A DNA stretch of 45,849 bases from an uncultured Clostridia bacterium (GTDB lineage: Bacteria > Bacillota > Clostridia > Oscillospirales > Ruminococcaceae): NCBI GenBank assembly GCA_947628615.1, contig CANRAO010000012.1:1-45849 (forward strand), read 5' to 3'. Under the pieces are notes generated by a model. It had not been told where the DNA came from. It worked only from the letters and a program-made list of their open reading frames with translations, and ran no database searches. This document shows positions 2,414 to 45,648 of this stretch, piece after piece. Positions within the stretch are counted from its first letter, which is position 1. Each line of letters opens with the position of its first letter. Position numbers and translations under genes: made by a program.

Positions 2414-3547
2414 ATGAAATATACAATTGAAATTGGAAAGATAGTTGAAGGGGCTTTGAAACATGATCAAATAAAGGTTATAAATTATACAAAGCAACTG
2501 ATTTCAAAGCTAGAACAAGACAATGAAGTGAGAGCTGCAAATAAATTTACCAAGCTTTTAACTGCCCAGAGTGAAACTACTCTTTCGGCCATGGATATGA
2601 GAAAGAATATTGCTATTCCATTAGATTCTGAATCTAGAACGGTATTAGCTGACATTATTTATCCTGACAAAAATAAAACTAGTGTTATTCTTTCAAAGGA
2701 AAACAAGAATAACTTGAATAATTTTATTCTTAGTTATAAAAATGCCGATAGGTTGAATTCAATGGGAATAGGTGTATCAAATACTTTGTTATTGTATGGA
2801 CCCCCCGGATGTGGCAAGACAAAATGTGCATATCTTATAGCGAGAGAACTTAATTTGCCATTGGTTATAGCAAGACTGGATAGCCTTATATCTTCGTACC
2901 TCGGAACTACTGCCAAAAACATACGGGCATTATTTGAGTTTGCCCAAAAAATTCCATGCGTACTTTTTTTAGATGAATTTGATGCTGTTGCAAAAGCTCG
3001 TGATGATAGTAATGAGCTTGGTGAGTTGAAACGTGTTGTAAATAGTTTGTTGCAAAATGTTGATGCAATGAGCAATGACAGTTTATTAATAGCTGCTACA
3101 AATCATGATAAATTATTAGATTCAGCTGTATGGCGAAGATTTGAGTATAAATTAAAAATAGAATTACCTGATACTAATGCCATATTAGAAATGATTGACC
3201 TCTTTACTAGAAATGCTCACAATTTAAGTACCAAAGAAAAGATGGAATTAGCTACGGCTTTGACTAATCTAAGTGGCGCTAATGTTGAGGAAATATTGAT
3301 TAAAGCAATACGTAAGGCTGTAATTCATGACAGGAAAGTGGAGAAAATTGATTATTATGATGAGCTTTTTTCGTTCAAGGGTATAATTCCGCAAAATTGC
3401 AGTTGTGAAAGGATGCTATTAAAAATAAAAGCAAATTTTCTAAGAGCTTGCAATGATAAAGTGTTTAGCTATCAAGTAATAGCAAACATTTTAAATTGTT
3501 CAAAAACAACAATTTCGAAGTTAATTAAGGAGGCTGATGAAATATGA
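2414..3547 (+). CDS. ietA: AAA+ ATPase, IetA-like
   Basis: ATPase partner of a subtilisin-like protease. IetA/IetS pairs are known as plasmid-stability toxin-antitoxin loci and as an antiphage system. Visible motifs: Walker A GPPGCGKT (129-136), Walker B VLFLDEFD (183-190), sensor-1 Asn in AATN (230), and Arg pair VWRRFE (241-242) in the arginine-finger region. The N-terminal 100 residues are a non-ATPase helical region. The C-terminus (about 350-377) looks like a helix-turn-helix (VIANILNCSKTTISKLI), which would fit DNA binding or autoregulation. The stop overlaps the next start by 4 bp (ATGA), so translation is coupled. The family name rests on domain pairing and order, not on a search. Confidence 0.8.
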   Translation: MKYTIEIGKIVEGALKHDQIKVINYTKQLISKLEQDNEVRAANKFTKLLTAQSETTLSAMDMRKNIAIPLDSESRTVLADIIYPDKNKTSVILSKENKNNLNNFILSYKNADRLNSMGIGVSNTLLLYGPPGCGKTKCAYLIARELNLPLVIARLDSLISSYLGTTAKNIRALFEFAQKIPCVLFLDEFDAVAKARDDSNELGELKRVVNSLLQNVDAMSNDSLLIAATNHDKLLDSAVWRRFEYKLKIELPDTNAILEMIDLFTRNAHNLSTKEKMELATALTNLSGANVEEILIKAIRKAVIHDRKVEKIDYYDELFSFKGIIPQNCSCERMLLKIKANFLRACNDKVFSYQVIANILNCSKTTISKLIKEADEI

Positions 3548-5823
3548 AAGAGAAAAATCTTCCAATAAAACTTGTTCTGCAGAAGAATGATGATACAAAG
3601 AGAAATACAGGAGGAGGTTCTATAACATTTTTTGGAGAGATAACGAGTGAATTACAAAAAGCAGTCGAGGAAAAGTTTAGTCAGATGTTAAAATACTATC
3701 AAGAAGTATTTGAGGAAAATGAATTTGTACCTGCGGTCGGTAAGATTACTGTCAAACCTGAAGCTATTGCCAAGTCGCATAAACCTAACGTTCTTTGCAA
3801 AAATTGTCCTATTATAGGAAGTAAAGATTTAGGTGAAATATTTATTAAGGTGAATGCTAAATCTATCCGGGAAACTGTAGAACTCATAAGAAATCCTCCG
3901 TCTGAAAAATTCAGAGCTAATTTAACCGCAGTGGATGATATAAGTCCTATAATTCCTAGTGAAAAAATATCTAGAAACATAGTGAGTTTATCCGAGCATA
4001 ATGATTTTGCTTGTATTAAAAACAGAATTAAAATTAAACTTTTTGATTTTGATGATGAATTTGATAATGCTCAGATTACGAATTATGTATTTAAAAAGAT
4101 CAATGAATATGGTTTTGATGGAAAATATAAAGTGATAAAATATGGATCTTCTATAATGTATATTAAAATTGAAGTTGAAACATATGATGATATAATTAAG
4201 CTTGCTAGTATAAATGGTGTAAAGACAATTGACTTTTTTCAGGAATATTCACAGCCATTAAGTAACTATGATTGTTCAGAAATAGTTACTTTAATTGACA
4301 GTGAAGCCTCAGAAAGTGATATTACAATTGGAATAATTGATGGTGGAATAAGTGATGAAAACAATCTCTTAAAAAATTATATTGTTGCAAGAGAATTTTA
4401 CGTTGACAAATTATATCAGAATCATAAACACGCAACTTTTATTGCCTCAACTATTCAGTATGGCAACGAGTTAAATAGCATTAAAACTAATGAGCATACT
4501 CGATACAAATTCGTTGATATTGTTGCAATACCCAATTCGGATAGGAATTTTGGCTTAACAGATTCAATTGGAGAAATTGAACTTATGGAGATAATTGAGG
4601 AGTGCATGGATAAGTATGCGCATAATACAAAAATTTGGAATTTATCTTTGGGAATAGAAACTCTTGTGTGTGATGGTTCAATTTCTGATTTGGGAAAATT
4701 TTTAGATTATATTCAGGATAAATATAAAGTTCAAATATTTGTGTCAAGTGGAAATTTAAATGAATTGCCTTATAGAGAATGGCCACCACAAGTTGATATG
4801 GGTGAAAGAGATAGAATAATTTCACCTGCGGACTCTGTGAGAGCTATCACTGTTGGTTCTGTTGCATTATATGATTCTAATGATTCAATAGTAAAAAGCA
4901 CAGAGCCTTCTCCGTTTAGTCGTAGAGGTCCAGGAGCAAACTACATAGTAAAACCTGATGTTGTTGACTTTGGCGGAAATCTTTCTAGAAATTATTCTAT
5001 TGCAGGATTAGGAATGAAGGGGATGGATTTATATGGTAATATTGTTGAGGGGAATGGAACTAGCTATTCAACTCCTAGAATTACACAGAAGTTTGCTTCA
5101 ATTTATGATAAAATGATGGATAAAGATATATTACTTGCTAAAGCTATTTTGATCCATTCTGCACGAATGAATTCTCGTGGACTTTTAGATGATAACCCTG
5201 ATAATATTAAATATTATGGATTTGGTATGCCGTCGAATAATGTTAGTGATATTTTGCTCTGTAGTGAGGATGAAGTAACACTAGTGTTTAAACAGAAGGT
5301 TAGGCAGGGAACGCATTTGGAGATGCTGGACTTTCCATTTCCGAAATCACTCATAAGAAATGGAAAGTATTATGGTGAAGTAGGAATGACGCTTGTATAT
5401 AATCCCGTTCTTGATGAGAATTTTGGTTGTGAATATTGCCGCATAAATATTGATGCAAAATTTGGTGTATATAGACAAAGTGCTTCGGGAAAGATTAAAT
5501 TTAAAGGTTGCATACCTCTTGATTGTGCTTGGAACGATAAATTTGAAAGAGCGAGAGTTGAGAACGGTTTTAAGTGGAGCCCAATAAAATCATATTATAA
5601 AAAAATTAAGCGTGGAATAAATGTTGGAGATGGCTGGAAAATTCGTATTGATATGACCCAAAGAAATGAAATTTCAATCCCTTATCAAGAATTTGTATTA
5701 ATTGTAACTATAAGAGATCCTGACGGAAAGGATATTTATTCTGAAGTTGTGAATGGATTAAGAGAAAGAGGTTATAGTACAAATAATCTTGAAACTAAGT
5801 TACAATTGCGTCAGCGTCATTAA
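3544..5823 (+). CDS. ietS: Subtilisin-like serine protease (S8), IetS-like
   Basis: A 759-residue protein with a catalytic S8 core in its middle: Asp266 in IGIIDGG, His296 in HKHATF, oxyanion Asn404 in SSGN, and Ser507 in GTSYSTP. All three catalytic residues are present, so it should be active. There is no signal peptide, so it is cytoplasmic, unlike degradative subtilases. The first 250 residues carry a CxxC-like pair near 85-88 and are otherwise unassigned. The C-terminal 200 residues are probably a beta-rich accessory domain. In this family the protease is thought to be the toxic arm controlled by the ATPase; the target is unknown. It starts inside the ietA stop (ATGA) and ends a few bases before repeat copy B. 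Confidence 0.85.
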   Translation: MKEKNLPIKLVLQKNDDTKRNTGGGSITFFGEITSELQKAVEEKFSQMLKYYQEVFEENEFVPAVGKITVKPEAIAKSHKPNVLCKNCPIIGSKDLGEIFIKVNAKSIRETVELIRNPPSEKFRANLTAVDDISPIIPSEKISRNIVSLSEHNDFACIKNRIKIKLFDFDDEFDNAQITNYVFKKINEYGFDGKYKVIKYGSSIMYIKIEVETYDDIIKLASINGVKTIDFFQEYSQPLSNYDCSEIVTLIDSEASESDITIGIIDGGISDENNLLKNYIVAREFYVDKLYQNHKHATFIASTIQYGNELNSIKTNEHTRYKFVDIVAIPNSDRNFGLTDSIGEIELMEIIEECMDKYAHNTKIWNLSLGIETLVCDGSISDLGKFLDYIQDKYKVQIFVSSGNLNELPYREWPPQVDMGERDRIISPADSVRAITVGSVALYDSNDSIVKSTEPSPFSRRGPGANYIVKPDVVDFGGNLSRNYSIAGLGMKGMDLYGNIVEGNGTSYSTPRITQKFASIYDKMMDKDILLAKAILIHSARMNSRGLLDDNPDNIKYYGFGMPSNNVSDILLCSEDEVTLVFKQKVRQGTHLEMLDFPFPKSLIRNGKYYGEVGMTLVYNPVLDENFGCEYCRINIDAKFGVYRQSASGKIKFKGCIPLDCAWNDKFERARVENGFKWSPIKSYYKKIKRGINVGDGWKIRIDMTQRNEISIPYQEFVLIVTIRDPDGKDIYSEVVNGLRERGYSTNNLETKLQLRQRH

Positions 5824-7182: not shown

Positions 7183-9423
7183 ATGTTACAAAATAATATT
7201 CTAATTAAAACGGAAGAAATTGATAGTATGATGTTAGAGATAATTAAAGAAATCAAATCCGATGTTGAGACTGGTATTTTAAGATACTTACAAGCTAATC
7301 CATATTCAAGTTTTCCTTTTTATAATTTTAATAAAATAATTAGCGAAAAAGGATTTAAAAAAGCATTTTTGTCTGAGAGTGAGACGGCAAAATTATATAA
7401 AAAGAAATTTCTAGATATGTTACACACACCAAATGGCAAAAATACTTTTTTTATTGTGGGATATCAAGGTTGTGGGAAAACAACTTTCATACAATCGGTG
7501 GTTAGCGAATATAAAAATAATACAGAAGCCAATGTTTTGCTTATAGACTGTGATAAAAATCCTAAGAAAGTAAAAGAACAGGTTAAAAGTATATTTTGCA
7601 GTGAATTAATTACTTCAATCGATAATATTGATGACTATTGTGGGTTTATTAACTTTTTTAATAATAATTTACCAGTAATTAAAACATTTAATAACAATAT
7701 AAAATTATTAGAGTTTTTTGAAATAATTAATAATTTACAAGTGAATATAGAATTGGATGAAACTAAAAAATTTATAGAATTGCATAATTTCATTTCTTCA
7801 TTAGATTTCGTTGATGTATTGTATTTATTGTTTTTTTGGCACTTATCATTGCAGTATGAATCTGAAAAAAGAAGTAAATTACTATTTGTTATTGACAATT
7901 TAGATTATATTGATGATTACAATGAATTAGTAACATTTATTGAAGGTATTGATGCGTTTACGATAGAGTTTTCAGATAAATTTTCACAACTAAAAGTATA
8001 TAAAAATACAAATAAAAGAATAGGATATATTGATAAAATAAAAATATTTATTTCAATGAGAGAGACAACAAGAGCTAATCTGCCATCCTCACATTTTTCT
8101 AACGCATTTAATAGTATTTATATTAGTGAAGATATGTCTGAATGGTACGATAAAAGTGCTATTATTGAAAAAAGACTTAAAACTTTAAAAGATTTTGATA
8201 AGTATAATGAATTGGATACTATTATATATGATCAAATAGAATTAATATTAAGTATTATTAAAGATGACTATACAAAGCGTGTTATTTTTCCTTTGTTTAA
8301 TAATAATTATCGCTCATGCATTACTATGTTAGTACGTGTTGTTATAAATAATCCGATACAGGTCAAGTCGTATAAATATCTAATGAGTTTAAACGAACCA
8401 ATGTTTAGACACGGAGCTAGAGGAATATTATTTAAACTTATTTTTGATAGATTTAGTTTGAATGATGGAAACGAAGAAAATTGTTTGAAAAAAATAGGTG
8501 TTTTAGACCTGTTAAATAGAGCAAATAAAGAAGTTAGTATATGTAGATTGCTATTATCTTATTTAAGTAACTATACTGAGACTAAATGTTCTTCTGCTCG
8601 TAATAGTGTTAGTATTAAAGATATTTTAGAAACATTCCAACATGTATTTAAAAAAGACGAAGTAGTTAAAATTCTATGGGAAATGTTTAACTTAAGAGAT
8701 ACAGAATGGACACATTTAATATCCTTTAATCAAATAGAGTATTATGATAAAATTAAGAATAATGTAATTGAGATTAATAAATTAGATCCTGAAACTACGT
8801 TATTACATTATAGCTGTGCAGGTAAAATTTATATAGAATATGTAACAACGCATTTTGAATTCTATTCAGTGCGAATCTTTAAAAATCTTGAAGCTGCTTT
8901 ATTTAGTGATAAAAGTTTTATTTTTGATAAAGAAACGAATACCTATAAATTTTTTACGATTATCAATAAAGTATATTTACAAGTTAAAAGTTGTTGCGAT
9001 GAATTAATAAAATTTAACAAGAAATTGTGTAATCAGAGTAAATATGGAAACCCATATAAAAATTCAGAATTATATAAGGATTCACATTATGTTTGTCAAT
9101 TTAAAAGAAAAAACATTTATGGTGAAGAGAGAAGGTTTAAGCAATTTCATGAAGACCGAATAATTAATAGTCATATTGTATATATTGACGCATTCAGAAT
9201 TTATGTTCTAAACTATTGCAAATTAATTGATAAAAACCAGAAAGCCAAAATAAACGAAAGACTTACAGGTTATATAAAGAAATATGTTGATTTATTAGAA
9301 GACAAAAATATTTTAATAAATGAAAAGACTTCTAAAATATTATTATCACATTATAAAAAGCAAATAGAAAAACTTCAGAATAATTGGGATGATTTCACAA
9401 CAGAAATAAGTTATAATGAGTAA
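7183..9423 (+). CDS. Large P-loop ATPase of the two-gene cassette (KAP/STAND-like)
   Basis: A 746-residue protein of unknown function. Visible: Walker A GYQGCGKTT (93-101), Walker B LLFVIDNLDYID (233-244, Asp238), and KIFISMRETTRANL around 290-305, which fits the strand after Walker B in STAND/KAP-type NTPases and carries Arg candidates. The region around 460-510 could be a winged helix. The C-terminal 200 residues are helical and Lys-rich, with no nuclease motif seen. AAGGAG precedes the ATG. Codon use is extremely AT-rich. The arrangement (small membrane protein, large P-loop ATPase, in an island beside a tRNA and next to an ietAS-like locus) is typical of defence loci, but I cannot match it to a named system. 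Confidence 0.75.
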   Translation: MLQNNILIKTEEIDSMMLEIIKEIKSDVETGILRYLQANPYSSFPFYNFNKIISEKGFKKAFLSESETAKLYKKKFLDMLHTPNGKNTFFIVGYQGCGKTTFIQSVVSEYKNNTEANVLLIDCDKNPKKVKEQVKSIFCSELITSIDNIDDYCGFINFFNNNLPVIKTFNNNIKLLEFFEIINNLQVNIELDETKKFIELHNFISSLDFVDVLYLLFFWHLSLQYESEKRSKLLFVIDNLDYIDDYNELVTFIEGIDAFTIEFSDKFSQLKVYKNTNKRIGYIDKIKIFISMRETTRANLPSSHFSNAFNSIYISEDMSEWYDKSAIIEKRLKTLKDFDKYNELDTIIYDQIELILSIIKDDYTKRVIFPLFNNNYRSCITMLVRVVINNPIQVKSYKYLMSLNEPMFRHGARGILFKLIFDRFSLNDGNEENCLKKIGVLDLLNRANKEVSICRLLLSYLSNYTETKCSSARNSVSIKDILETFQHVFKKDEVVKILWEMFNLRDTEWTHLISFNQIEYYDKIKNNVIEINKLDPETTLLHYSCAGKIYIEYVTTHFEFYSVRIFKNLEAALFSDKSFIFDKETNTYKFFTIINKVYLQVKSCCDELIKFNKKLCNQSKYGNPYKNSELYKDSHYVCQFKRKNIYGEERRFKQFHEDRIINSHIVYIDAFRIYVLNYCKLIDKNQKAKINERLTGYIKKYVDLLEDKNILINEKTSKILLSHYKKQIEKLQNNWDDFTTEISYNE

Positions 9424-10770: not shown

Positions 10771-11646
10771 ATGCACGATATATGGAACCCGTGGCATGGC
10801 TGTATAAAGTGCAGCGAGGGATGTCAGAATTGCTATATGTACTTTCTTGATCGTATTCGTGACAAAAACGGTGCTGATATATACAGAACAAAATCAAGAT
10901 TTACCTATCCTGTTCATAAGAACAGAAAAGGCGGTTACAAAATACAAAGCGGTGAATTGATTCGTGTCTGTATGTCGTCAGATTTCTTTTTAGAAGAAGC
11001 GGACGAGTGGCGTGATGAAGCATGGGAACTTATGAGGGAACGCAGTGATGTAAAGTTTTTTCTTTTAACAAAACGCCCACAGAGAGTGGCAGATTGTCTG
11101 CCGTCAGACTGGGGTGATGGTTGGGAGAATATCTTTTTCAATGTCACCTGTGAAAATCAGCGCAGAGCAGACGAGCGTATTCCTATCCTGCTCGATTTGC
11201 CGTTTAAGCACAAGGGAATAATGTGTGCACCTTTCATCGGTGCGGTCAGCATTGAAAAATATCTTGGTGACGGGCAGATAGAACAGGTTATATGCGGCGG
11301 CGAAAATTACGATGGTGCAAGACCGTGTAAATTTGATTGGGTTAAGAGCCTTAGAGCCGAATGTGTTGCCCATAATATCACATTTTGCTTTATTGAAACA
11401 GGTACGGTTTTCATCAAAGACGGCAGACGATATCATTTACCTAAAAAGCGGCTGCAAAGTGAAATGGCATATAAGTCGGGAATGAATTATGTGGGTAAGC
11501 CGATAGAGTGGAAACTCACAAACGCTTTGGGTATGGAGATACCTAAAGAACATTTATATGTACCTCACTATCGCAGTAATTGTGAGCATTGCGGAAGCAG
11601 ACTTATTTGTAACGGATGTTCTGATTGCGGAAGATGTAAAGAATAA
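10771..11646 (+). CDS. DUF5131 / phage Gp37-Gp68 family protein
   Basis: The N-terminus WNPWHGCIKC...CQNCY (Cys11, 14, 18, 21) is the hallmark of the Gp37/Gp68 family, a radical-SAM-like group often found on phages and islands; the reaction is unknown. The C-terminus (about 270-288) has CEHCG...CNGCSDCGRC, a zinc-ribbon-like cluster. Length 291 fits the family. The start has AAGGTG 6 bases upstream. Its base composition is closer to the core genes than to the island on its left, so it may be the first core gene or an older acquisition. Confidence 0.82.
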   Translation: MHDIWNPWHGCIKCSEGCQNCYMYFLDRIRDKNGADIYRTKSRFTYPVHKNRKGGYKIQSGELIRVCMSSDFFLEEADEWRDEAWELMRERSDVKFFLLTKRPQRVADCLPSDWGDGWENIFFNVTCENQRRADERIPILLDLPFKHKGIMCAPFIGAVSIEKYLGDGQIEQVICGGENYDGARPCKFDWVKSLRAECVAHNITFCFIETGTVFIKDGRRYHLPKKRLQSEMAYKSGMNYVGKPIEWKLTNALGMEIPKEHLYVPHYRSNCEHCGSRLICNGCSDCGRCKE

Positions 11647-13204: not shown

Positions 13205-15811
13205 ATGACGAAAAAAGTTTTAAATCTATTGACAGCATTGGTAATGGCAGTTAGTTTAGCAGGGGTGTTGCCAACGGTGACGGCAGGAGCGGAGACCTAT
13301 AGCGGTTCATGCGGTGATAATGTAACTTGGTCGCTTGATAAAGGAAGTGGTGTGCTTACAATTTCAGGTACGGGTGATATGGATAATTTTGGTCTTGATT
13401 ATGGGGCATCAGGTTACGCTACTACTATACCTTGGTATAGTTATCGATTGAACATTAGACATGTTGAAATTAACTATGGTGTAACAAGAATTGGAGATTG
13501 TGCCTTTTGTGATTGTAACAGTTTAACAAGTATTACAATACCAAATAGCATAACAAGCTTTGGTGGTAGTGTGTTTAATAATACACCTTGGCTTGAAAAC
13601 AAACAAAAAGAAAATCCTTTAGTTGTAATTAATGGAATACTTATTGATGGAACAACTTGTAAAGGAGATGTAACAATACCTGACAATATAATGAGTATTG
13701 GAGTTGGTGCTTTTTATGAATGTAAAAGTTTAAACAGTATAGTAATACCAGATAGCGTGACAAGCATTAGAACTCTTGCGTTCGGATATTGTGGTAGTTT
13801 AACAAGTATAACAATACCAAATAGTGTAACAAGTATTGGAATTGAAGCGTTTTTCAAATGTGAAAGTTTAACAAGCATAACGATACCAGATAGTGTAATA
13901 AGTATTGGAGGTCATGCATTTTATGAAACGCCATGGCTAGAAAACAAACAAAAAGAAAATCCGTTAGTTATTGTTAATAGAATACTTGTAGATGGATCAA
14001 CTTGTAGTGGAAATGTTATTATACCTAATAGTGTAACAAGTATTGGAGATGATGCGTTTTGGTGGTGCGAAGTTTTAAAAAGCATAACAATACCAGATAG
14101 TGTGACAAGCATTGGAGATGATGCGTTTGTTAATTGCACCAGTTTAACAAACGTAACAATACCAAACAGTGTAACAAGTATTGGAAATTTTGCGTTTTGG
14201 AATTGTGAAAGTTTAACAAATATAACAATACCAGATAGTGTAGCAGTTATTGGAGAACATGTATTTTCTAGTTGCGGTTTAACAAGTATAACTATACCAA
14301 ACAGTGTAACAAGTATTGGAGATAGTGCGTTTAGTAGTTGTGAGAGTTTATCATACATAACAATAGGGAATAGTGTAACAAGCATTGGAGATTATGCGTT
14401 TGAATTTTGCCGCAGTCTAACAAGCATAACAATACCAGATAGCGTGACAAGCATTGGAGATGGTGCGTTTGAAGATTGTGACAGTTTAACAAGCATAACA
14501 ATACCAGATAGCGTGACAAGCATTGGGGATTATGCGTTTTATTCCTGCTCAAATTTATCGAAGATAACAATACCTGATAGTGTAACAAGTATTGGAGACC
14601 GGGCGTTTGACGGTTGTAACAGTTTAACAAGTGTAACCATACCAGATAGTGTGACAAGCATTGGATATGGTACGTTTTATGATTGTGACAGTTTAACAAG
14701 TATAACAATACCAAACAGTGTAATAAGCATTGGAGATGATGCGTTTTATGATTGTGACAGTTTAACAAGTATAACAATACCAAATAGTGTAATAAGCATT
14801 GGAGATGATGCGTTTTATGAGTGTATAAGTTTAACAAGCATAACCATACCAGATAGCGTAACAGATATTGGATATGGAGCGTTTGGTGGATGTAACAGTT
14901 TAACAGAAATAAATGTTGATTCTAATAATAAAAATTATTCATCTCAAGATGGAGTTTTATTTAATAAAAGTAAAACTGACTTAATTAAATATCCGGAAGG
15001 TAAAACACAAACATCTTATACAATACCAAACAGCGTAATAAGCATTGGATATGAGGCGTTTTTTAGTTGCACCAGTTTAACAAGCGTAACAATACCAAAT
15101 AGTGTAACAAGCATTGGAGATAATGCGTTTGAGTATTGTGACAGTTTAACAAGCATAGCTATACCAAATAGCGTAACAAGTATTGGTGATTGTGCATTTA
15201 CATATTGTGATAGTTTAACAAGTATAACAATACCAGACAGTGTAACAAGTATTGGATATGAGGCGTTTGCATGGTGTGAAAGTTTAACAAGCATAACAAT
15301 ACCAAAAAGTGTAACAATTATTGGAGATGATGCGTTTTTTAGTTGGGACAGTTTAACAATAAAATGCTATAAGGATAGCTATGCAGAGCAATATGCATTA
15401 AAGAATGATATTGACTATGAACTTATAGATGATAATTCAAACATACCCAACAACCCATACAACTCAAATCAAACCGTCAGTCCTATAAACAAGGCAAAGA
15501 CAGCCCCAAGCACAAACAAAATTACCGTTTCAAAACCCACCAAAGTAAAATCAGTTAAGCTGACCGCAAAGAAAAAGAAACTGAATGTAAAATGGAAAAA
15601 GGTAAGTGGAGCGACAGGCTATGAAGTAATGTATGCTAAAAATAATAAATTCAAAGGCAAGAAAATGATTAAGGTTAAGAAAAACAAGGCAACTCTTAAA
15701 AGGTTGAAATCTAAGAAAAAATACTTTGTCAAGGTTAGAGCCTATAAGACTGTAAACGGCAGTACAAGTTACGGTAAGTGGAGCAAGGTTGCTAAGAAAA
15801 AGGTTAAATAG
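13205..15811 (+). CDS. BspA-type leucine-rich-repeat surface protein
   Basis: Secreted or surface adhesin-like protein of 868 residues. The signal peptide is residues 1-29, with a likely cut near AGA-ET. About 23 LRR_5/BspA repeats of 23 residues follow the pattern [18 protein letters not shown]. They are broken by two near-copies of a [14 protein letters not shown] insert and by a degenerate repeat around residue 565. The C-terminus (about 775-868) is a Lys-rich fibronectin III-like domain, with a Ser/Asn/Thr linker before it. AGGGAGG precedes the ATG. There is no LPXTG motif. The DNA repeats are nearly identical, so copy number can change by recombination. A structured repeat supplies the last base of the stop codon. 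Confidence 0.9.
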
Positions 15812-40958: not shown

Positions 40959-43847
40959 TTATGGCAGTAATCTATTCAAATCTCTCGGGAACATTGAGGT
41001 CTCGCGAATATTTGAGTAGTTAAGCAGTTTCATCAAGAGCCGCTCCAGACCTATTCCTAATCCGCCGTGAGGGGGAAGTCCGTATTTATGAGATTCAAGG
41101 TAGTTTTCAAAGTCGGCAGGGTCAAGTCCCTGACGTTTCATTTTCGCTACCTGCTCATCATAATCATGAATTCTCTGACCGCCCGAGGTGATCTCAAGAC
41201 CTCTGAATATAAGGTCAAACTTATATGCGGCTTTAGGATCGTCTCTGTCGTCCATTGCATAGAACGGCGGCTTGGAGCTAGGGAAGTGAGTTATAAAGAT
41301 AAAATCGCTGTCATACTTTTCTTTTGCGTATTTGCAAAGATTGACTTCGTCCTCAGGGTCTAAATCGAATTTTGTTGAAACATTTTTGCCCCGCAGAAGC
41401 TCTATTGCATCGGAAAATCTAATTGATGGAATATTTTTGATATGAGGTACATCAGCACCGAGCAGTTTTATCTCTTTAGAGTAATTTTTCTCAATATACT
41501 CAAAAATATGTTTAAGCATAGCTGTTTCCATATTCATAACATCATACATACTGTCTATATATCCCATCTCGAAATCAAGACCGATATATTCATTAATATG
41601 ACGTGATGTTGCGTGCTTTTCAGCTCTGTAAACAGGGGCTATTTCATAAACTCTGTCATAGAAAGCGATAGCAGCCTGCTTATAAAACTGAGGAGACTGA
41701 TTCAAAAATGCAGGATGACCGAAATAATCTATCTTGAAGATGTTTGCTCCGCCTTCTGCGCCCTGAGCAACGATTTTCGGCGTGTGAATTTCAGTGAAGT
41801 CATTCATTCTCATAAACTCGTGCATTCCCTGAACAAGACCTTCCTGTAGTTTGAAAATAGCACGCTGATAAGGGTTTCTCAAAGAAACGCTTCTGTTATC
41901 AAGATTGACATCAAGGGTGCAATTAAGTTCGCCTTGAGAAATCTTGAGAGGATATTCCTCTTTAGGTTTAGATATAAGCTTTATTTCACTTAGAATGATC
42001 TCAATGCCGTTTTGGTCTCGCTTATTTTCATTGACAGTGCCCTTGATATGAACAAAATAACCCTCGTGCAGACCGTCTATGCTGTCTTTGCAGTTATCCT
42101 TATTATATACGGTTTGAATAACGTCTCTTGCTGTTCTTATAACAACAAACGAGATGCTTCCCATCGACTTGACCTTATGAACACAGCCGGAGAATTCAAC
42201 CTCTGAACCGATATTGTTCTGAGCAGTTTCAACGCTGAATTCTTGCATTACGTTTTTGCCGCTTATTACTAACAGCTTATCGTTATCAGTTTCGGCTTTA
42301 GGTATGAATTTATCGGGGTTTTCATATTTAGTGAGTTTTGATGTGTCAGGTTTTGAAGTGTTTTCAGATTTTTCACTTTCTTCCGATGTCTGTTTTTGCT
42401 GTTGTGTTTCATCGGATTTAAGCTTGCTTTCGAGAATTTCTTTTATGACCTTAGGCGTACCTACGCCTTTAAGTGCCTTTGTACATTTTCCCATAAAGAA
42501 GCCGAATACCTTTGTTTCGCCGTTTTTATACTGTTCAACCTGCTCGGGGTTAGCGGCTAAGATCTCGTCGATTCCTGCTTCTAACTTTGAGTTGTCAAGC
42601 TCAATCAAATAGCCGTTTGTCTTTATGATTTCACTGCAAGTTTTTCCTGTTTCGACCATTTCTCTGAATGTCTTATTAGCGTCGTTTAAAGAAACCTTTT
42701 CCTCGTCTGAGAGCTTAACCAGTTCGGTAAAATCTTCGGCTGTGAAATTAAGATTATCCAAGTCAATTTCACCGAGATTTAGTCTTCTCATAAATTCACG
42801 CAGAATAAATGCGGCTATGCTCTTTGGATTGTTATACGCCTTTACTGCATTGTCAAAGAAATCAGAAACGACCTTAGACTGAATCAATATTTTAGCGTCT
42901 GTTTCGCTCAAGCCGAATTTCTCAACGTATCTCTTGATTCTTTTGTCGGGCATTTCAGGCAGTTTTGCTTTGATCTCGTCAAGCATTTCGTCAGTGAAGT
43001 TTACCTGCAAAATATCCGGCTCAGGGAAGTATCTGTAGTCGTGAGCGTTTTCCTTGTTTCTCATTGAGGTCGTAACATCACGGTTTTCGTTGTATCTTCT
43101 TGTTTCCTGAATAACACGCTTTCCTGCGTCAAGCAAGAGAGCCTGACGTCTTTCCTCGTATTTTATTGCTCTGCCGATTGATTTGATAGAGTTTAGGTTC
43201 TTGATCTCCGCACGAGTGCCGAATTCCTTATCGTCGGGCTTCATAAGAGAAATATTTACGTCGCACCTTAAAGAACCCTGCTCCATTTTGCAGTCGCTGA
43301 CGCCTGCATATTTAAGCAAAAGCGCAATTTGAGATACAAACGCCTGAGCCTCTTCAGCAGATGAAATGTCAGGCTCGGTAACTATCTCGATAAGAGGTAT
43401 TCCGCATCTGTTGTAGTCGGCGAGCGAAACGCCGTTAAAATCATCGTGTATGAGCTTTCCCGCGTCCTCTTCAAGATGTATACGGTTAATTCTGATATTT
43501 TTCTTTTTGCCGTCGACCTCAATAGGAACAAGACCGTCTAAGCAGAGAGGTCTTTGAAGCTGTGAGATTTGATATGCTTTAGGCAGGTCGGGGTAGAAGT
43601 AGTTCTTTCTGTCGAACACAGAAAACTTGCTGATGTTACAGCCCAGCGCAAAGCCTGCTTTTACTGCGTATTCAACAGCAGTCTGATTGATAACGGGAAG
43701 CGTTCCCGGCATACCTGTGCATACAGGACAGCACCTTGTATTTTGGTCGCCTCCGAACTCAGCGTTGCAGGTGCAGAAAACCTTTGATTTTGTAAGCAGC
43801 TCGGAGTGAATTTCAAGACCGATGACTGTTATATATTTATTTTCCAT
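40959..43847 (-). CDS. gatB/aspS: GatB fused to archaeal-type aspartyl-tRNA synthetase (AspRS2)
   Basis: One uninterrupted 962-codon frame. Residues 1-475 are a full GatB: GLEIHSELLTKSKVFC, zinc-type Cys25/27/40/43, FYPDLPKAYQISQ, HLEEDAGKL, HDYRYFPEPD, and a C-terminal tail domain (FFMGKCTKALKG). Residues about 476-525 are a charged, low-complexity linker. Residues about 526-962 are a class II AspRS of the archaeal/eukaryotic type: an OB-fold anticodon domain, motif 2 around 732-750 (APVYRAEKHATSRH), and motif 3 GLGIGLERL (929-937). His557 in GCVHKVK occupies the position that is His in non-discriminating and Trp in discriminating archaeal AspRS (from memory). Third gene of gatC-gatA-gatB. 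Expected to charge tRNA(Asn) with Asp and pass it to GatCAB for amidation. Confidence 0.93.
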   Translation of the reverse strand: MENKYITVIGLEIHSELLTKSKVFCTCNAEFGGDQNTRCCPVCTGMPGTLPVINQTAVEYAVKAGFALGCNISKFSVFDRKNYFYPDLPKAYQISQLQRPLCLDGLVPIEVDGKKKNIRINRIHLEEDAGKLIHDDFNGVSLADYNRCGIPLIEIVTEPDISSAEEAQAFVSQIALLLKYAGVSDCKMEQGSLRCDVNISLMKPDDKEFGTRAEIKNLNSIKSIGRAIKYEERRQALLLDAGKRVIQETRRYNENRDVTTSMRNKENAHDYRYFPEPDILQVNFTDEMLDEIKAKLPEMPDKRIKRYVEKFGLSETDAKILIQSKVVSDFFDNAVKAYNNPKSIAAFILREFMRRLNLGEIDLDNLNFTAEDFTELVKLSDEEKVSLNDANKTFREMVETGKTCSEIIKTNGYLIELDNSKLEAGIDEILAANPEQVEQYKNGETKVFGFFMGKCTKALKGVGTPKVIKEILESKLKSDETQQQKQTSEESEKSENTSKPDTSKLTKYENPDKFIPKAETDNDKLLVISGKNVMQEFSVETAQNNIGSEVEFSGCVHKVKSMGSISFVVIRTARDVIQTVYNKDNCKDSIDGLHEGYFVHIKGTVNENKRDQNGIEIILSEIKLISKPKEEYPLKISQGELNCTLDVNLDNRSVSLRNPYQRAIFKLQEGLVQGMHEFMRMNDFTEIHTPKIVAQGAEGGANIFKIDYFGHPAFLNQSPQFYKQAAIAFYDRVYEIAPVYRAEKHATSRHINEYIGLDFEMGYIDSMYDVMNMETAMLKHIFEYIEKNYSKEIKLLGADVPHIKNIPSIRFSDAIELLRGKNVSTKFDLDPEDEVNLCKYAKEKYDSDFIFITHFPSSKPPFYAMDDRDDPKAAYKFDLIFRGLEITSGGQRIHDYDEQVAKMKRQGLDPADFENYLESHKYGLPPHGGLGIGLERLLMKLLNYSNIRETSMFPRDLNRLLP

Positions 43848-43866: not shown

Positions 43867-45324
43867 TTAATCTATGTTTGGCAAAACTCTTGTGAAGTTC
43901 TTTTCATAGGCGTCCGCTGTCTGAATTACCGTCTGCTCGTCAAAAGGCTTTCCGATAACCGACATTCCGATAGGAAGTCCTTTGCCGTCATATCCGCACG
44001 GGGTAGAGATTGCAGGAAGTCCTGCAATATTAACCGTTACTGTGCAAATATCAGCCTGATACATCTTTACAGGGTCGGATATATTTTCATCACAGCGGTA
44101 TGCAGTTGTTGGCGTTGTAGGTGTTAAAATAACATCGCACTTATCAAAAATATCGTTGTATTCTTTTCTTATAAGCTGTCTTAAAGCCATTGCTTTTCCG
44201 TAGTAAGCGTCGTAGTAACCGCTTGAAAGAGCGTAGTTGCCTAAGAGTATTCTTCTTTTAACCTCGTCGCCGAAGCCCTCACGCCTTGACGCTTTGATAA
44301 GCTCATCATATGACTCGCACTTCTTATCAGTTCTGTGTCCGTATTTTATACCGTCGTATCTTGAAAGGTTTGAAGCCGCTTCAGCAGATGCAATAAGATA
44401 GTATGCAGGAATTGCATATTTAAGCGACGGCATAGAACATTCAACAAGCTCTGCGCCCATAGCTTTGTATTCGTCAGTGGCATTTAAGACCGCAGTTTTT
44501 ATAACATCGTCTATTCCCTCAGCAAAAAACTCTTTAGGCAGGGCGATTTTCAATCCCTTTATATCATTGCCTATTTTTGCGTTGAAGTCGGGAACATCTA
44601 CTTTAGCAGATGTTCCGTCGTGAATATCAAATCCGCAAATAGCATTGAGTATAGTTCCGCAGTCCTGAGCGTTTTTAGCGACAGGTCCTATCTGGTCAAG
44701 AGATGATGCGAATGCAACCAAACCGTATCTTGAAACACGGCTGTATGTCGGTTTCATACCTGTTACTCCGCAGAAAGATGATGGCTGACGTATCGAGCCT
44801 CCTGTATCTGAGCCGAGAGCCGCTGTGCAAAGGTCTGCTGAAACTGCACTTGCCGAACCGCCCGATGAACCGCCCGGTACCCTGTTAGTATCATACGGGT
44901 TCTTGGTTTTCTTGAATGCCGCCGTTTGTGTAGAACCGCCCATTGCAAACTCGTCCATAGAAACCTTTCCGAGCATTACTATGCCCTCGTTCTCCAGCTT
45001 ATCCATAACTGTTGCGTTGTAAGGCGGAATGAAATTTTCAAGCATTCTTGAAGCACAGGTGGTTCTTACACCCTCTGTACAGATGTTGTCTTTAATCGCC
45101 ATTGGTATTCCCGTCAGCGGTGAAGCTTCGCCCTTGTTGATTTTCTCCTGTGCTTTATTGCAAGCCTTATATGCCTGCTCTTTTGAAAGGGTTATAAAGC
45201 AGTCCAGTTTTTTGTCTGCCGATTCAATACGGCTGTAGTATTCGTCAGTAAGCTCTTTTACGGAAATTTCTTTTCCGTCCAGAGCTTTTCTTATATCTTT
45301 AATACTGCTGTTTTTTAGTTCCAT
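43867..45324 (-). CDS. gatA: Asp-tRNA(Asn)/Glu-tRNA(Gln) amidotransferase subunit A
   Basis: Glutaminase subunit that delivers ammonia to GatB. The amidase-signature triad is visible: Lys78 (MAIKDN), cis-Ser153 (GGSSGGS), and Ser177 (GSDTGGS). 485 residues, normal length. It lies 45 bp after gatC and 19 bp before the gatB fusion, so all three are one transcript. Confidence 0.97.
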   Translation of the reverse strand: MELKNSSIKDIRKALDGKEISVKELTDEYYSRIESADKKLDCFITLSKEQAYKACNKAQEKINKGEASPLTGIPMAIKDNICTEGVRTTCASRMLENFIPPYNATVMDKLENEGIVMLGKVSMDEFAMGGSTQTAAFKKTKNPYDTNRVPGGSSGGSASAVSADLCTAALGSDTGGSIRQPSSFCGVTGMKPTYSRVSRYGLVAFASSLDQIGPVAKNAQDCGTILNAICGFDIHDGTSAKVDVPDFNAKIGNDIKGLKIALPKEFFAEGIDDVIKTAVLNATDEYKAMGAELVECSMPSLKYAIPAYYLIASAEAASNLSRYDGIKYGHRTDKKCESYDELIKASRREGFGDEVKRRILLGNYALSSGYYDAYYGKAMALRQLIRKEYNDIFDKCDVILTPTTPTTAYRCDENISDPVKMYQADICTVTVNIAGLPAISTPCGYDGKGLPIGMSVIGKPFDEQTVIQTADAYEKNFTRVLPNID

Positions 45325-45369: not shown

Positions 45370-45648
45370 TTATTCCACTACCTTTGGAACAACAAAGCAG
45401 TTATCTCTGTTTTTAGCATTGGCAATTACCTTTTCGGTAGGCATTGAAGGTTCATTGAAATCCTCTCTTAGATCGTTTAAATATATATTCTTGTTATCGG
45501 CAAGAGCGTCATAGGTGACGTCGATTTCCTTTACCTTATCCATAAGCTCAATAATGTTTGTCATATCGCTTGACGCCTTTTTAAGCTCATCGTCGGTAAA
45601 ATCAAGTTTACCAAGCTCTGCTAAGTATTTTACCATTTCTAAATCCAT
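45370..45648 (-). CDS. gatC: Amidotransferase subunit C
   Basis: Small belt subunit that holds GatA and GatB together. 92 residues, starting MDLEMVKYLAELGKLDFTDDEL with the family's helix pair, LNDLREDF and the C-terminal RDNCFVVPKVVE. First gene of the operon. Confidence 0.94.
   Translation of the reverse strand: MDLEMVKYLAELGKLDFTDDELKKASSDMTNIIELMDKVKEIDVTYDALADNKNIYLNDLREDFNEPSMPTEKVIANAKNRDNCFVVPKVVE

Follow-up and report, generated by a model that had tools for sequence, protein, structure and literature searches.

The window analysed here is the whole stretch of 45,849 nucleotides, and on its reverse strand lies a gene in which gatB and an archaeal-type aspS are joined (Table 1). The gene is read as one frame, from an ATG at 43847 to a TAA that ends at 40959. 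The initial annotation had described a single 962-codon frame with a complete GatB and a complete archaeal-type AspRS, placed directly behind gatC and gatA. Our analysis bore out this description: the coordinates are exact, both halves have Pfam matches and exceeded NCBIfam cut-offs, and gatC and gatA, both upstream on the same strand, were also over their NCBIfam cut-offs (TIGR00132, 616 against 481; TIGR00135, 52.5 against 47.1).

Table 1. Position of the fusion gene, its parts and its partner genes in the window.
Feature	Position	Strand	Size or residues	Basis
GatB::AspRS2 fusion gene	40959..43847	(-)	962 aa plus stop	ORF and profile matches
GatB half, complete, catalytic and YqeY/tail domains	42414..43847	(-)	residues 1-478	profile and structure matches
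Linker	42240..42413	(-)	residues 479-536	alignment of fused rows
Conserved linker motif DTSKLTKYENPDKFIP	42300..42347	(-)	residues 501-516	alignment, dN/dS, motif search
Archaeal-type AspRS half	40962..42239	(-)	residues 537-962	profile and structure matches
His557	42177..42179	(-)		by alignment, His in Thermus AspRS2 (1n9w) and Trp in the 1b8a/3nel AspRS
gatA	43867..45324	(-)	485 aa	profile and structure matches
gatC	45370..45648	(-)	92 aa	profile matches

In the N half of the fusion protein, the Pfam domains GatB_N (PF02934) and GatB_Yqey (PF02637) covered residues 7-289 and 329-476, and the second was matched over its full profile (1-148 of 148). This half scored 537 bits against the NCBIfam model TIGR00133 gatB, for which the cut-off is 315. 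The C half was found to consist of an OB fold (551-625) and a class II synthetase domain (646-956) and nothing else; the GAD domain was not among the Pfam matches of this AspRS half. It exceeded the cut-offs of TIGR00458 aspS_nondisc (397 bits against 368) and of NF003483 aspartate--tRNA(Asn) ligase (542 bits against 353). The nearest solved structures were 3h0l, 3al0 and 2df4 for GatB, and 2df4, 3h0l and 4wj3 for GatA. The best PDB match of the AspRS half was 1n9w/3kfu, the non-discriminating AspRS2 of the crystallised Thermus transamidosome, and the AspRS half, GatB and GatA all matched chains of this one complex, 3kfu.

Control of the operon by a T-box was also considered, on a lead from Clostridium acetobutylicum that the title of a 2012 work by Saad reportedly gives. 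This candidate was rejected, as neither the window nor the 11 loci searched among the 78 related ones gave a match at gathering score.

The search for other GatB-AspRS fusions, a check that the initial annotation had proposed, gave a positive answer. The fusion is carried by 24 of the 78 related named loci, three of which end at a contig edge, and a full-length single-frame fusion was present in 15 of the 41 genomes searched, the window's own genome included. The genus, with 15 genomes, accounts for 13 of these, and the other two (G019 and G023) come from elsewhere in the family; the remaining two of the genus are G002, which is cut inside the fused frame by a contig end, and G009, with only the last 193 residues. 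The assemblies with fused loci bear the labels uncultured Clostridia, Ruminococcus or Clostridiales; the host group is gut bacteria. In these loci gatA precedes gatB in all 21 fused loci checked (the other three of the 24 lack the start of gatB), and gatC is present in 19 of these 21, both misses being contig ends.

A wider census was made with the AspRS half as query (E up to 1e-60). At the level of the order 75 of 394 genomes matched, for the class 56 of 391 and for the phylum 36 of 398; these draws overlap, and contig ends truncate a few of the matches. In each draw the only open frame longer than 540 codons was the window's own, and no other genome of the genus was among the matches listed. 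Thus, as far as sampled, the fusion is confined to near relatives.

An assembly or sequencing error could conceal a stop between two genes. The same genes are indeed separate and adjacent in relatives, and in three of 26 unfused loci (L039, L040 and L042) a single in-frame stop parts both frames. However, the fusion was found on 24 contigs of different assemblies, and the linkers have diverged, with indels in whole codons and a dN/dS below 1. These results refute a hidden stop or start, so that the probability of such an error is negligible. GatB-AspRS2 is a genuine single-chain fusion that is conserved in relatives.

The linker, about 58 residues long in the window, was compared in 22 aligned fused rows, in which its length, counted at 477-535 between L476 and E536, is 53-60 residues. 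The initial annotation had called it low-complexity. This name is apt for residues 477-500, which are variable and in which no residue is common to more than six of the 12 rows under 90% identity, but it does not fit residues 501-516, which form a conserved motif of roughly TSKLTxYxNxxKYxP. Among the same 12 rows, L505, Y508 and N510 are each kept in 11 and T506 in 10, and all 12 have an aromatic residue at 514 and P516. An expression written for the motif matched 22 of the 24 fused named loci and none of the other 54, the unfused gatC-gatA-gatB-aspS2 loci among them; because the expression was drawn from the fused genes, its presence in them is no test. The two loci that it missed, L032 and L038, are fused and have a variant motif. 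When 151 sequences (1.11 Mb with overlaps) were searched in six frames, the matches lay in fused genes only. The linker had no match among solved structures up to E = 10.

To describe the selection on the linker, pairs of rows were taken inside four groups of closely related sequences, which include 15 of the 22 rows, and dN/dS was pooled over these pairs. The values were 0.32 for residues 478-500, 0.08 for the motif and 0.09 for residues 517-535, compared with 0.04 for GatB and 0.03 for AspRS; the linker figures are rough, because synonymous change is near saturation (dS 1.1-1.9, over 16-24 codons). In the window, both other frames of the linker contain stops. Synonymous change is not lowered in the motif (dS of 1.5, against 0.8 in AspRS). 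Since the synonymous sites of the motif vary freely, the constraint acts on the protein and not on the DNA, and a nucleotide-level element in the motif is unlikely. These measures indicate that the linker evolves as coding sequence.

A stop closes gatB in the unfused relatives and aspS2 comes next, with the two frames in agreement in 10 of 26 loci. The anti-Shine-Dalgarno energy at the start of the unfused aspS2 was -8.8 kcal/mol or stronger in every one of the 14 loci scored out of these 26. Among the 22 fused rows, 19 had no in-frame start candidate at -8.0 kcal/mol or stronger, and a possible internal start of this strength was found in the other three (L028, L030 and L031). The only in-frame internal candidate in the window is an ATG at -1.7, and gatC, gatA and gatB of the operon have -8.2 to -10.0. 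Judged by these energies, the strong ribosome-binding site of the unfused aspS2 is lost in the window's fusion, which also speaks against an assembly error. In 26 of the 78 loci gatB and aspS2 are adjacent but separate genes, from which we conclude that a lost stop codon probably gave rise to the fusion; the comparison supports read-in of the downstream aspS2 in a gatC-gatA-gatB-aspS2 operon as its likely origin. In 11 unfused loci (L055, L057-L061, L063, L071, L075, L077 and L096), about 230-660 bases lie from gatB to the aspS2 frame.

The long chain might be cut in the linker by a protease at the motif, which would yield an ordinary GatB and an ordinary AspRS2. A short conserved motif inside a variable linker would suit a recognition site. 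However, 19 of 22 rows retain the fused frame and lack a strong second start, a state that separate end products would not need, and we know of no proteolytic processing of GatB or AspRS. We therefore hold such cleavage to be improbable.

The number of fusion events was explored with a concatenated tree of GatB and AspRS without the linker. It contained 32 rows, namely 20 of 25 fused (the window with 19 of the 24 loci) and 12 of 26 unfused; the fused rows L022, L024, L025, L045 and L049 were excluded because they are near copies or partial, and of the unfused rows L072 is partial and the other 13 are outside the alignment. A clade with 100/100 support comprised 19 of the 20 fused rows, and L085, with 67% identity, was placed near this clade with weak support. 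A single clade of all 20 fused rows was not rejected (p-AU 0.52) and fits slightly better than the free tree. On the concatenated tree the fused or unfused label needs two changes; one change was enough in 18% of 200 bootstrap trees. The linker motif of L085 is the variant MSAYKNNSQYFP, and because L085 carries this variant, one origin is favoured. In a quick tree of AspRS only (53 rows, with long-branch warnings), the fused L085 grouped with the unfused L042/L043, and the starred branches force two changes of state. On these trees the fusion may thus have arisen twice, or once with a later fission, and the grouping of L042/L043 with L085 is the place of a possible fission or second fusion.

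We also investigated the pathway in which the fusion would work. The search for AsnRS covered 48 genomes, of which 24 are fused and 18 unfused, five have AspRS2 and no gatB in the fetched stretch, and one is L080 (Pygmaiobacter). The initial annotation had proposed to look for an absence of asnS and for a separate bacterial aspS, and the data agree with both. Lack of AsnRS usually accompanies an Asn-transamidosome but is not required for one. No AsnRS was over the profile cut-off in the own genome, which is 93.5% complete, or in any of the 24 fused genomes; this absence is consistent but rests on incomplete data, because the fused genomes are drafts in many contigs. The bacterial enzyme of the own genome (AspRS1, 591 aa) has a GAD domain and scored 739 bits against TIGR00459, over the cut-off. 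It has Leu at the site where the non-discriminating AspRS of Pseudomonas presumably has His31, which is a weak indication.

AsnRS was over the cut-off in 12 of the 18 unfused genomes. Fisher's test of fusion against AsnRS gave p = 2e-6, a value that ignores kinship and is invalid as a probability if there were one or two fusion events. The other six unfused genomes, with L039, L042, L043 and L078 among them, have no AsnRS over the cut-off, and therefore the loss of AsnRS may predate the fusion and the pathway can operate in the absence of a fusion. Of 44 genomes tested, 42 had genes of the asnB type over the cut-off, with two copies in the own genome; the exceptions were L032 and L062, both fused. 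Free asparagine is thus likely made separately in most genomes.

The initial annotation took His557 as a sign of a non-discriminating enzyme. The contrast of His with Trp in the anticodon loop of the OB fold is what we take to be the discrimination position, at which a Trp-to-His change relaxes an archaeal AspRS. The alignment with the Thermus His agrees with this reading, and His stands at this position in 20 of 20 fused rows and in 41 of 44 AspRS rows overall, fused and unfused (the exceptions L093, L098 and L099 are all distant). However, the residue is also kept in unfused relatives that have AsnRS, and because of this His557 alone is no proof of lost discrimination. At a second site, we assume, a Lys-to-Pro change relaxes the archaeal enzyme. 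This site was placed by hand at residue 612 from the structure alignment; it is Gln in the window and Q, P, L, I, S, Y, A or F in the fused rows (Pro in 4 of 20), and Lys occurs there in none of the 44 AspRS rows compared.

If the AspRS half were discriminating and charged tRNA-Asp alone, the insufficiency of His557 as proof and the variability of the second position in the fused rows would be easy to accommodate. However, no AsnRS was found while a bacterial AspRS is present, models for aspartate--tRNA(Asn) ligase fit over their cut-offs, and Lys is missing at the 612 position in all 44 rows, so that a discriminating half is very improbable. The evidence favours a non-discriminating AspRS half.

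A second gatC-gatA-gatB set is present in the own genome, each gene over its cut-off, and no GlnRS was over the cut-off there. The tRNA-Asn(GTT) and two tRNA-Gln of this genome have U1-A72, and tRNA-Asp has G1-C72; the end pairs were read by eye, and typing was done on the loci reported for 30 of the 33 tRNA matches. According to a review (PMC9976931), tRNA-Asn owes its amidation to U1-A72, tRNA-Asp is protected from it by G1-C72 and U20a, and ND-AspRS enzymes are dimers.

Together with GatC and GatA of its operon, the GatB-AspRS2 chain likely makes up an asparagine transamidosome that is covalently tethered. The AspRS half would load Asp on tRNA-Asn, and the Gat half, as judged from its family, would recognise U1-A72 and amidate the product to Asn-tRNA-Asn, so that Asp-tRNA-Asn may be channelled through the fusion. 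Because ND-AspRS enzymes are dimeric, the unit likely has two GatCAB held by an AspRS2 dimer. Since no AsnRS was found, Asn-tRNA-Asn probably comes mainly from the fused operon; AspRS1 and the second GatCAB could be an alternative source. The second GatCAB would serve Gln-tRNA-Gln, and the two sets would then divide the work, with Asn as the task of the fused set. We speculate that the linker motif probably docks onto one partner domain, the GatB tail or AspRS.

The fusion may also be explained as a device for co-expression or stoichiometry, in which the complex assembles on tRNA-Asn as in Thermus and the tether does not channel. The same gene order without a fusion is often seen in relatives, and the six of 18 tested genomes with neither AsnRS nor fusion imply that the fusion is unneeded for the pathway. 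However, the length of the linker is nearly fixed in the 22 rows, and its motif is under strong purifying selection, beyond the needs of a passive spacer. We regard this explanation as doubtful, yet deserving of some weight. The tethered transamidosome can be extended to a fuller proposal, in which one Oscillospiraceae-like lineage has a covalent transamidosome, a docking or guiding motif that came after the fusion, and a tethered transfer that is obligate for Asn-tRNA-Asn; in our judgement this proposal has as much for it as against it.

How Asp-tRNA-Asn is kept from the ribosome is explained by transient complexes that hand it over. In this group of gut bacteria, a complex otherwise known to assemble transiently appears to be pre-tethered. 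A natural one-chain version with close unfused relatives would make it possible to measure directly how tethering affects fidelity and rate, and the linker motif offers a specific target for mutation.

Several known systems can be compared with the fusion. The Asn-transamidosome of Thermus thermophilus (PDB 3kfu; AspRS2 also 1n9w) likewise combines an archaeal-type AspRS2 with GatCAB, but there AspRS2 and GatB are separate chains, whereas the fusion is one chain with a motif-bearing linker. The unfused operons of related Oscillospiraceae/Clostridia have the same gene order, with GatB and AspRS2 mostly 60-76% identical; unlike the fusion, they have a stop after gatB, a strong ribosome-binding site before aspS2 (in all 14 scored) and no linker motif. 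The name of the NCBIfam model NF009460 (PRK12820), bifunctional AspRS / GatC, points to another covalent link between AspRS and a Gat subunit. Because this AspRS-GatC fusion has a curated model, covalent joining of AspRS and Gat is not without precedent. However, the subunit is GatC and not GatB, it is joined at the other end, and the AspRS part is bacterial-type, since the own AspRS1 matches positions 23-617 of 723 with 579 bits; the fusion did not reach the cut-off of this model (82 bits against 1379).

GlnRS with a YqeY domain (NF011291 PRK14703; PDB 2hz7) is similarly a synthetase chain that matches the GatB tail, but it has the tail domain alone, on GlnRS, and the GatB catalytic domain is unmatched. 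A gene fusion within a Gat operon is also described for gatC-gatA of Mycobacterium smegmatis in PMC7541841, where it is shown by Western blot; it is a laboratory-selected mutant that joins two amidotransferase subunits and that, according to the title, causes mistranslation. In the open PMC library, a scope without subscription journals and protein databases, we recognised no paper on a GatB-AspRS fusion. Protein databases may hold automatic annotations of this architecture.

Some other genes of the window were also noted. A pair of an AAA ATPase and a subtilisin-like protease at 2414-5823 (+) matches IetA (462 bits) and IetS (852 bits) of the anti-phage defence system IetAS, and it adjoins a tRNA cluster. 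Near this pair, a 746-aa protein (7183-9423, +) has weak NTPase matches, with NPHP3_N over the cut-off and NACHT below it; it had no PADLOC match and is possibly a further defence gene. A 291-aa protein (10771-11646, +) matches the PADLOC candidate families PDC-M30B and PDC-M41B with about 99 bits. An 868-aa BspA-type leucine-rich-repeat protein at 13205-15811 (+) has an fn3 domain and a zinc-ribbon match.
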